Shown here piece after piece: positions 47,280 through 62,708 of a stretch of 64,000 nucleotides of DNA. The number at the start of each line of letters is the position of its first letter. The stretch's first letter is position 1. The translations under genes were made by a program, and so were the position numbers. The notes beneath the pieces are model-generated. The model had not been told where the DNA came from. It did not search any database and saw nothing but the letters and a program-made list of their open reading frames with translations. Location: the NCBI RefSeq assembly GCF_000732535.1, contig NZ_APNK01000021.1, forward strand, positions 1 through 64,000, in the 5' to 3' direction. This DNA is from Salinisphaera hydrothermalis C41B8 (GTDB lineage Bacteria; Pseudomonadota; Gammaproteobacteria; Nevskiales; Salinisphaeraceae).

Positions 47280-48971
47280 ATGACCGATCGCGAAAAACGT
47301 CCGCTTTATATCCCGTATGCGGGCCCGACGCTGCTCGAGATGCCGCTTCTCAACAAGGGCAGTGCTTTTTCCGCCGACGAGCGGGTGGATTTCAACCTGA
47401 TCGGTCTGCTGCCACAGAACGTCGAATCCATCGAGGAACAGGTCGAGCGCGCGTACAAGCAGTACAAGGCCTGCGATACCGCGCTCGACAAGCACATCTA
47501 TCTGCGCGGCATTCAGGACGACAACGAAACCATGTTCTTCCGGCTGCTTGAAGAGCATCTGGAAGAGATGATGCCGATCATCTATACGCCGACCGTCGGC
47601 GAGGCCTGCGAGCAGTTCTCCGAGATTTATCGCAACCACCGCGGGTTGTTCATCTCGTACCCCGACCGGCATCGCATGGACGACATGCTGCGCTCCGCCA
47701 CCAAGGACAACGTCCGCGTGATCGTGGTCACCGACGGCGAGCGCATCCTGGGCCTGGGCGACCAGGGCATCGGCGGCATGGGCATCCCGATCGGCAAACT
47801 GTCGCTATACACGGCCTGCGGTGGCGTGTCGCCGGCCTATACGCTGCCGGTCGTGCTGGATGTGGGTACCAACAACCAGCAGCTGCTCGACGATCCGATG
47901 TACATGGGGTGGCGCCACGAGCGGATCTCGGACGAGGCCTACGCCGAGTTCGTGGATCTGTTCGTCCAGGCCGTCAAGCGGCGCTGGCCGAAAGTGCTGC
48001 TGCAGTTCGAGGATTTCGCCCAGACCAACGCGAACCCGCTACTCAAGCGCTATCGCGATCAGATCTGCTGCTTCAACGACGATATCCAGGGCACCGCGTC
48101 CATCTGTGTCGGCTCGCTGCTCGCGGCGTGCAAGGCCAAGAAAGAGAAGGTCTCGGACCAGCGCATTGTGTTCGTCGGCGCCGGCTCCGCCGGTTGTGGC
48201 ATTGCCGAGCAGATCATCGTGGCCATGACCGACGAAGGCCTGTCGGACGAAGAAGCACGCCAGCGTATCTTCATGATCGACAAAGCCGGTTTGCTGACCG
48301 ACGACATGGATAATCTCTACGACTTCCAGCAGAAGTTGGCGCAGAAGAAAAGCGACCTGTCGGACTGGTCGGGTGATCTCGGCGACGAGGCCTTGATGAC
48401 CACGGTGGAGAATGCCGAGCCGACGGTGCTGATCGGCGTATCCGGCCAGCGCGGGCTGTTCTCCGAAAAAGTCATCAAGCAGATGCACAGCCAGTGCAAG
48501 CATCCGTTCGTGATGCCGTTGTCGAACCCGACGTCGCGCGTGGAAGCCACGCCGGAAGAAATCCTCACCTGGACCGACGGCGATGCGCTGGTGGCCACCG
48601 GCAGCCCGTTCGACGACGTCGAGATCAACGGCCGCAAGATCCCGATCGCCCAGTGCAACAACGCCTATATTTTCCCCGGTGTCGGCCTGGGCGTGATCGC
48701 CGCGAATGCCTCGAAGGTCACCGACGAGATGCTCATGGCAGCTTCGCGCGCGCTGGCCGAAAATTCCCCGCTGGCGCATTCGGATACCGGCGCGCTGCTG
48801 CCCGCGTTGTCGGACGTGCGCGACTTATCCAAGGCGATCGCGTTTGCCGTGGCCAAGCAGGCACAGAAAGACGGCGTGGCGTTGTCGTCCTCGGACGAAG
48901 CGATCGAGGCCTCGGTCGAGCGCAATTTCTGGTTCCCGCGCTATCGGCGTTATCGGCGGGCGGCGTTCTAG
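47280..48971 (+). CDS. maeA: NAD-dependent malic enzyme
   Basis: Oxidative decarboxylation of malate to pyruvate. 563 aa, the length of E. coli MaeA (SfcA). Visible features are [13 protein letters not shown] (substrate site), the metal/substrate region around [26 protein letters not shown] and the nucleotide motif [12 protein letters not shown]. Start chosen at ATG 47280 ([10 protein letters not shown]), as in MaeA proteins; an in-frame start seven codons earlier exists. The TAG stop (48969-48971) overlaps the CTAG at the left end of the inverted-repeat element that follows. Confidence 0.95.
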
Positions 48972-49241
48972 GGCGTATTGAGGTTTCGTGCGAGCGCCGC
49001 GTTGGCGTCCGCAAATCGTGTCCGGCAAGGCGCGAGTCGCCGCGTCGTGGCGTGCCACGACCCAGACTCGTAACGCCGCCGGGCGGGATTTGCGGCCCAA
49101 CCCGAAGGGCCAAGCGCTGTTTTGCGGCAATCCAGCGTTATAGCTCTCTCGCGTAGAACAACTACGCCACGTTCGCTACGCCTCGTCTTGCCGCAAAACA
49201 GCGCTTGGCGCGGACTCGCACGAAACCTCAACACGCCCTAG
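48968..49241. repeat. Inverted-repeat element copy 1 (274 bp, MITE-like)
   Basis: The ends are a 27-bp inverted repeat with one mismatch. The left end starts CTAGGGCGTATTGAGGTTTC and the right end finishes CTCAACACGCCCTAG. An internal perfect 20-bp inverted repeat, CAAGCGCTGTTTTGCGGCAA (49111-49130) against 49188-49207, encloses a 57-bp loop. No transposase or convincing reading frame. Both termini carry CTAG, possibly a target duplication. About 90% similar to copy 2 at 49661-49928 by eye. It lies directly after maeA and uses the maeA stop codon as its edge. Confidence 0.85.
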
Positions 49242-49356
49242 CGAACGGTTTTACCCGGAGATTTCCGCTGATATAGCGAGTCGCTCGGTCTTCGGGCGTC
49301 TCGTGACCCGGAAAAAAACGTGCCGGGCGGGGGCGGGTTGCCGCGCGGTGGTTCGC

Positions 49357-50075
49357 TCAGCGGTCGCGTCGCTTGCGCCGGATATAGAGCTGTTTGCGTA
49401 CGCGGGCGATCACCGTGCCGTCGGCCGTGGTGATGTCGTTCTCGTACCAGCGCAGGAACTTGTCGCCGCCTTCGGTGGCGGCGACGGCTTCGGCGCGCAG
49501 GGCGTCGTCGAACACGAACTCGGCATGTACCGTTTCGCGCCCGGGGGCGACGAACTCGATCTCGCCGGCCTTGTCCCACACGATGTAGTCGTGCCCCAGG
49601 CGTTCCATCGCCAGCAGCATCCAGAACGGATCGCACATCTTGAACAGGTTGCCACCGAACGGGCGTGTTGAAGTGTCGTGCGAGCGCCGCGTTGGCGTCC
49701 GCAAATCGTGTCCGGCAAGGCGCGAGTCGCCGCGCCGTGGCGTGCCACGACCCAGACTCGCAACGCCGCCGGGCGGGATTTGCGGCCCAACCCGAAGGGA
49801 CAAGCGCTGTTTTGCGGCAATCCAGCGTTGTTGCTCTCTCGCGTAGGCCCACTACGCCGCGTTCGCTACGCCTCGTCTTGCCGCAAAACAGCGCTTGGCG
49901 CGGACTCGCACGACACTTCAACACGCCCGGTCCCAACGTAATTGCGGTTCCACCGGCGCAGCCGCAGCGTCACGCGGGCCACACTCCAGTCGTCGGCGAG
50001 ATGGGCGACGTGGATGCCGCTGGCCGCAAAGGGCGGCCAGACGTTCATGAAATGCTTGAGCAGGCGCGGTTGCAT
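49357..50075 (-). pseudogene. DUF4442 (hotdog thioesterase-like) gene interrupted by element copy 2
   Basis: Two halves of one DUF4442 protein lie either side of the element. The 5' half (50075 down to about 49929) encodes MQPRLLKHFMNVWPPFAASG and ends LRRWNRNYVGT. The 3' half (about 49660 down to 49357) resumes PFGGNLFKMCDPFWMLLAME and continues DYIVWDKAGEIEF to the stop. Family members read NRNYVGT-x-FGG without a break, so the 268-bp element splits the gene at this point. Translation from the 5' half runs into a stop inside the element at 49866. DUF4442 proteins have a hotdog thioesterase-like fold. Confidence 0.85.
49661..49928. repeat. Inverted-repeat element copy 2 (268 bp), inserted in the DUF4442 gene
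   Basis: Perfect 24-bp terminal inverted repeats: the left begins GGGCGTGTTGAAGTGTCGTG and the right ends CACTTCAACACGCCC. The internal 20-bp stem is the same as in copy 1. The terminal bases that differ from copy 1 (GAAGTGTC here, GAGGTTTC in copy 1) differ at both ends together, so pairing is preserved. Orientation matches copy 1. No obvious direct duplication of flanking bases. Confidence 0.88.
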
Positions 50076-62670: not shown

Positions 62671-62708
62671 TCGCTACGGACTCGCACGAAACGGCAACAG
62701 GCTCTAAG
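62671..62708. repeat. Solo end of the inverted-repeat element family
   Basis: CGGACTCGCACGAAACGGCA followed by ACAGGCTCTAAG resembles the right end of element copy 1 (GGACTCGCACGAAAC, then CAACACGCCCTAG). No matching left end is visible nearby. It lies about 30 bp upstream of rlmJ. Confidence 0.55.

Follow-up and report, generated by a model that had tools for sequence, protein, structure and literature searches.

Correia elements, Nezha and ERIC are small inverted-repeat elements at high copy number, and the family described here is likened to them by description alone. A closer parallel is offered by the prokaryotic MITEs, which are typically AT-rich and can be mobilised in trans by related IS, according to the sections of PMC10969869 drawn on here. 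The Salinisphaera family resembles the MITEs of these sections (PMC10969869) in that its copies are short, lack a transposase gene, possess terminal inverted repeats (TIRs) and target duplications and have stable predicted folds, but it departs from the typical AT-rich form in a G+C content of 65-67%, against 63.5% for the window as a whole. A correspondence of end types over many subtypes does not feature in these sections of PMC10969869, and the words 'covary' and 'gene conversion' do not occur in that paper. The second relevant system is the IS427 group of the IS5 family. In the parts of PMC3281130 used here, its members measure 832-865 bp, all but one have 2-bp target repeats, and two overlapping frames with a frameshift motif are usual, with a single-frame member also reported. 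An IS on contig C8 of Salinisphaera hydrothermalis C41B8 agrees with the group as portrayed there in its length of 860 bp, its 17-18 bp ends, its TA flanks and its IS5-family transposase, but differs from the usual member in having a single frame of 267 aa instead of two overlapping ones. The MITE-like family itself, in contrast to the IS427 group, is without transposase, and its body has nothing in common with the C8 IS beyond the ends. Literature searches on Salinisphaera combined with insertion sequences or MITEs returned no description of the family, and a search on the covariation of MITE terminal inverted repeats with transposase found nothing.

The window, i.e. the whole stretch of 64,000 nucleotides analysed here, contains two copies of 268 nt with 95% identity and a spacing of 690 bp (Table 1). 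An earlier sequence-only reading had placed copy 1 at 48968-49241, which includes the C-TA and TA-G of the target, and copy 2 at its exact limits. It had correctly described ends that differ between the copies (GAGGTTTC versus GAAGTGTC) and are identical on both ends within each copy; the perfect 20-bp internal stem that it reported applies to copy 2, the stem of copy 1 being perfect over 22 bp. End to end, the terminal 24-nt repeats match at 24/24 positions in copy 2 and at 23/24 in copy 1, whose lone mismatch lies at position 7 (GTATTG vs GTGTTG). Copy 2 is without flanking TA and sits inside a predicted DUF4442 reading frame (minus strand, 49357-50075), which it splits. A solo end had been announced at 62671-62708; a right end is indeed present there, but it comprises 29 nt with two mismatches, and its match to copy 1 extends over only 26 nt. 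Read by eye, the stop codon TAG of the frame upstream of copy 1 (48969-48971) consists of the TA duplication and the first G of the element.

Table 1. Positions of the two MITE-like copies, their parts and neighbouring features in the window.
Feature	Position	Strand	Remarks
MITE-like copy 1	48971..49238	+	268 nt; begins GGG, ends CCC; end type CGT-AGG
MITE-like copy 2	49661..49928	+	268 nt; begins GGG, ends CCC; end type CGT-AAG
TA target duplication, left flank of copy 1	48969..48970		C precedes
TA target duplication, right flank of copy 1	49239..49240		G comes next
Copy 1 left terminal repeat, outer 16 nt	48971..48986	+	covarying, common to IS
Copy 1 right terminal repeat, outer 16 nt	49223..49238	-	
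Copy 1 left inner repeat, positions 17-24	48987..48994	+	rich in mismatches among own copies
Copy 1 right inner repeat, positions 17-24	49215..49222	-	
Copy 1 internal stem, 5' arm	49109..49130	+	
Copy 1 internal stem, 3' arm	49188..49209	+	
Solo right end, remnant	62676..62704	+	type CCT-CCG; 29 nt, 2 mismatches
DUF4442 frame, first part, broken by copy 2	49932..50075	-	profile 6-46, 23.2 bits, just below cut-off 25
DUF4442 frame, second part, broken by copy 2	49357..49659	-	profile 49-132, 30.9 bits

The S. hydrothermalis genome (4.28 Mb, 91 contigs) holds about 100 copies of the family; the 66 of them used below are too short for a transposase gene, in line with the non-autonomous element proposed from the sequence. 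At least 40 near full-length matches, copy 1 included, have 89-100% identity (166 candidates, 40 scored). End matches with up to three mismatches numbered 116, of which 100 were listed, and end sites with at most one mismatch numbered 202, against 2 in the control. The family was found in 13 of 13 sampled Salinisphaera relatives and, as weaker matches, in 6 of 27 genomes outside the genus (best E 2.1e-25). As expected of MITEs, the copies are short, many and dispersed, with 24-nt TIRs and a TA duplication (lacking in copy 2), and they share their ends with an autonomous element, the C8 IS, over 17-18 bp, which applies to some end types and not to every one. For the counts that follow, the copies of the S. 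hydrothermalis genome (own copies) were drawn from the 40 near full-length matches and from 52 regions round listed ends; the resulting 74 end pairs, minus seven shorter than 230 nt and minus L047, which was out of register, left 66 copies of 232-312 nt. The full genus set of 126 end pairs adds 60 copies from the genomes of the 13 relatives, which were taken from the best BLAST matches and are therefore biased to bodies resembling copy 1 of the window.

TA stands on both flanks in 79 of the 117 copies that begin with GGG and end with CCC; a pyrimidine (C or T) precedes the left TA in 92/95, and a purine (G or A) follows the right TA in 84/95. The target is therefore YTAR, with the TA duplicated. 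When the 60 relatives' copies were compared with the own loci through 195 bp of flank per side, no site came to light that seemed to carry the element in both and to be similar on either side. Nor was a clean empty site found; two sites had homologous flanks and no own-genome element, and were not clean.

The central observation is the agreement between the two ends of a copy. With the end type defined by the bases at positions 4-6 and 11-13, 62 of the 66 own copies have the same type on both sides, against a mean of 25.8 and a maximum of 39 in 5000 random pairings, which bears out the covarying ends claimed from the two window copies. Over the full set, 111/126 copies are like-ended (within-genome shuffling: mean 56.2, maximum 70 in 3000). 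Among the 66 own copies, position 4 was changed alike on both ends 15 times against one mismatch, position 5 23 times against one, and positions 11 and 12 nine and ten times against two each. Nine like-ended types occur among the 62 own copies and 16 overall; the commonest own types are CGT-AGG (37/66) and TCT-AGG (13/66). Copies with unmatched ends, which the sequence-only reading had named as counter-evidence, do exist, namely 4/66 own and 11/60 relatives' copies, an example being L055 with TCT-AGG at one end and CCT-CCG at the other.

This covariation is nearly confined to the outer part of the repeat. In the own copies, positions 1-16 hold 60 paired changes and 21 mismatch cells of 1056, compared with 4 paired changes and 52 mismatch cells of 528 at positions 17-24 (mismatch rate, Fisher p 1.6e-11). 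The corresponding figures for all 126 copies are 191 alike and 55 mismatched at positions 1-16, and 44 alike and 93 mismatched at 17-24. Partial covariation extends across the genus to positions 18, 20 and 23 (20, 14 and 8 alike vs 8, 34 and 15 mismatched); the boundary is therefore not absolute and is softer than in the own copies. Rare variants follow the same division, with 23 paired and 43 unpaired at positions 1-16, 2 and 61 at 17-24, and 11 and 291 (11/302) in the interior stems. The covarying outer stretch nearly coincides with the 17-18 bp common to the IS5-family IS of the same genome.

Three IS5-family elements of 860 bp are present in the own genome, on contigs C8, C57 and C9. C8 and C57 carry GGGCGTGTTGAGGTTTC at both ends, and GGGCGTGTTGAGG stands on both ends of two of the own IS copies; GGGTCTGTTGAGG occurs at one end of one copy, and the ends of C9 are unlike, GGGTCTGTTGAGG and GGACGTGTTGAGG. 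The frame is intact only in C8, those of C57 and C9 being interrupted by TGA. The C8 transposase scores 257.7 bits against NF033580 (IS5 family; cut-off 110) and also passes Pfam DUF4096 and DDE_Tnp_1. The two ends of the C8 IS are alike at 17/18 positions. Its matches to MITE copy 1 are of 18 and 17 bp without mismatch at the right end and of 17/18 at the left, and beyond the termini there was no match better than E 0.33. Two more end sites, on C13 (10993) and C6 (9773), were considered as further matching IS and rejected, the transposases there having AGAGCCTGTTTCAAAAC-like and GGGCGTGTCGTCACGAGAT-like ends; an IS630/Tc1-type partner was ruled out by the lack of a DDE_3 match in the own genome. 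On contig C23 (53666), a single end GGGCGTGTTGAGGTTTCAT has A at position 18, as on one C8 IS end, and may mark an IS remnant.

Related IS were found in Nitrosomonas, Pseudomonas, Methylomonas, Azomonas and others, and their ends vary at positions 4, 5 and 10-14. The IS-end set comprises 58 related transposase loci (53 of the 80 found and 5 of the genus); the other 27 of the 80, mostly partial matches, were left outside. Both ends were found at 50/58 loci, with TA on both sides in 45/50. Among 31 distinct IS end pairs, 108/124 cells match at positions 4, 5, 11 and 12, compared with a mean of 75 and a maximum of 88 in 2000 random pairings. Because the IS ends were located by an anchor on GGG, TGTT and TT with two mismatches allowed, their constancy there, positions 3, 6, 7 and 15 included, is in part a product of the search.

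Given the termini and TA flanks that the MITE-like copies share with the IS, we consider the family to be probably served by IS427-type IS5-family transposases, which would move it in trans by reading its outer ~16-17 bp. This reading builds on the copy number, the TA flanks, the termini common to the IS, the near-confined covariation and the recurrence of the same variable positions in the IS, all of which were seen directly. The transposase would recognise each end by this stretch and insert the element at a YTAR site with duplication of the TA. Unlike-ended copies would spread less, leaving like-ended survivors, and the several end types would represent several transposase lineages, past or present. 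Recombination would exchange bodies between copies, with the end pairs staying in place. With about 100 copies per genome and nine own like-ended types, the family would then provide a map of the end bases that an IS5-type transposase tolerates or reads.

MITE and IS end types correspond well where the main own-genome types are concerned and partially elsewhere. CGT-AGG and TCT-AGG, the two commonest own MITE types, recur on IS ends within the own genome, and the possibility raised earlier that a full-length IS already explains the ends largely holds for these two, but not for several others. In the genus, CGT-CCG is found on both ends of IS in genomes G003 and G006 and on single IS ends in G002 and G005; G002 has this type in two of six sampled MITEs and on two IS ends, but the lone sampled MITEs of G003 and G005 are not CGT-CCG, unlike the IS there. 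In G001, CCT-ATG is present at one end of one IS and on both ends of one of eight sampled MITEs. A second G001 IS (L214) has one CCT-ATG end with G at position 15 and lies outside the 58-locus set because its mate end was not found; 37 ends of this genome, mostly CCT-ATG, carry G at 15. CCT-CCG, the top type in the relatives, accounts for 34/126 MITE copies, but among the IS it stands on both ends only in L271 of Azotobacter, which differs at position 10. The IS-end set contains no IS with the ends ACT-CCG, CGT-CGG, CCA-AGG or CGT-AAG, the last being the type of window copy 2. Furthermore, no transposase match was obtained in 6 of the 14 genus genomes (G004, G007, G008, G009, G010 and G013), all of which have MITEs. 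G013 has 110 exact end sites, many of those listed being GGGCCTGTTGCCGTTTCAT and GGGGCTGTTGCCGTTTCGT; it gave no DDE_Tnp_1 match at E 0.001, and its family has seemingly been left without its helper.

Transposase recognition accounts less readily for the rare changes of the outer 16 positions, among which pairing is frequent (23 paired vs 43 unpaired). Two private changes, to A at position 12 and to G at position 15, stand on each end of window copy 2; an exact-pattern search found this combination on no other own end, and it is present in no IS of the IS-end set. Paired private changes of the same kind were seen in L034 (position 6), L095 and L183 (position 7) and L199 (position 3). Such changes in single copies, some of them at positions nearly invariant in the IS ends examined, are not explained with confidence. 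These changes, the end types without an IS and the reassortment of end pairs with the body could stem from more than one transposase specificity or from end-to-end copying in the course of transposition. The sampled IS and copies may miss lineages, as the G at 15 in G001 suggests.

Copying of one end from the other, already offered as an alternative by the sequence-only reading, is the main rival, although we regard it as rather unlikely. The ends would meet in transposition, one would template the other, and both would change in one step. This might take place in a circle junction, where CCC-TA-GGG would be the centre of a palindrome, and the transposase would then only filter which variants persist, a tentative picture in which the circle junction is an assumed intermediate. 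The outer ~16 bp would be rewritten together, the element would track a drifting transposase specificity in single steps, and end pairs would travel as a unit independently of the body, consequences that are as doubtful as the copying itself. Private pairs such as those of copy 2 should arise rarely by one-sided mutation, and paired rare variants are far scarcer at positions 17-24 and in the interior than in the outer 16, as copying of the ends would have it; position 4, moreover, is better matched in the MITEs than in the IS (mismatches in 6/126 vs 10/31, p 8e-5). The interior hairpin arms are closer-spaced and are not homogenised, and the ends would therefore have to meet in a transposition intermediate. 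However, of 12 genus ends with T at position 7 no two are mates among those listed, and only one end of L095 fits the pattern. In addition, 15 of the 23 rare paired cells fall on positions variable in IS (4, 10, 12-14), four more are the G at 15 that was found in a G001 IS end, and L159, L160 and L188 look like a single lineage counted repeatedly. End-to-end copying, if it occurs, would account for the ability of short elements to follow a transposase that changes, a feat that demands the simultaneous alteration of both ends.

Matching end positions, ~240 bp apart, are in strong LD (r2 0.79-0.94), but bin averages between end and interior do not exceed 0.042, with 0.28 as the largest single value. 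For interior sites less than 10 bp apart LD is 0.37; it drops to 0.03 at 10-19 bp and lies at 0.01-0.12 over larger distances, where it peaks at 70-79 bp, the distance at which one internal stem pairs. On a tree of the bodies, from which the outer 30 nt had been removed, the 62 like-ended own copies require at least 25 end-type changes, as many as shuffled labels do (mean 23.6, minimum 20), and all 111 like-ended copies require 44 (shuffled mean 61.0, minimum 52), but these counts are only a guide, since the tree is weakly resolved (24/121 inner branches starred, bootstrap not settled) and bodies seem to recombine between copies. Length class, whether 267-268 nt (the script also counts 266), 280-284, 292-295 or 307-312 nt, was not associated with which of the three main end types a copy has (p 0.81, small counts). 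End pairs reassort with the body, a pattern that can come from recombination keeping the ends in place or from joint exchange of the ends.

That selection on a folded RNA or a DNA cruciform keeps the ends paired, the first explanation proposed from the sequence, is improbable. The whole element does have a strong predicted fold (z -13.7 on the plus strand, -14.8 on the minus strand), and some interior pairs show compensatory types across the genus, namely alignment columns 219:233 (45 cells) and 57:113 (28 cells), these cells being sequences rather than events and the pairs having been picked by RNA folding. However, the covariation does not track the predicted fold: in the own copies it ends at position 16, inside a repeat that reaches position 24, and rare changes of the interior stems are paired in only the 11/302 cases given above. 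G-T mismatches, at 20 vs 16 A-C at positions 1-16 and 23 vs 26 for variants present in exactly one copy in all stems, are not in excess there, and in basal arm 2 A-C cells (72) outnumber G-T cells (29). The 575 G-T against 184 A-C cells over all pairs include consensus G-T pairs and come from pairs that RNA folding had selected. A mild per-pair G-T excess is left standing in arm 1 (29 vs 19 among pairs with a variant; 26 vs 12 in the relatives), as the folding explanation would have it. No Rfam family matched in the window at gathering thresholds. Folding of RNA or cruciform is not needed to account for the covarying ends.

The body triplet between CCC and GGG (window 49101-49109) is GAA in 47/126 copies and its reverse complement TTC in 57/126, a pattern that resembles the inversion of a tiny loop; none of the 84/126 copies from which the apical segment could be cut out has this segment inverted. 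In-place correction of imperfect inverted repeats by template switching in replication, without transposition, would give such loop inversion, but it should affect positions 17-24 and the interior stems at least as strongly as the outer ends, which is not the case, and we consider it very improbable.

Seven own contigs (C3, C5, C29, C39, C41, C46 and C68) start less than 500 bases from an element end, and the assembly may therefore break at these repeats. At two loci (L040, L077), two elements abut head to head with one common TA (CCCTAGGG), and at L054 two elements stand head to head with one common CA; the TA created by an earlier copy may serve as an insertion site for another element.
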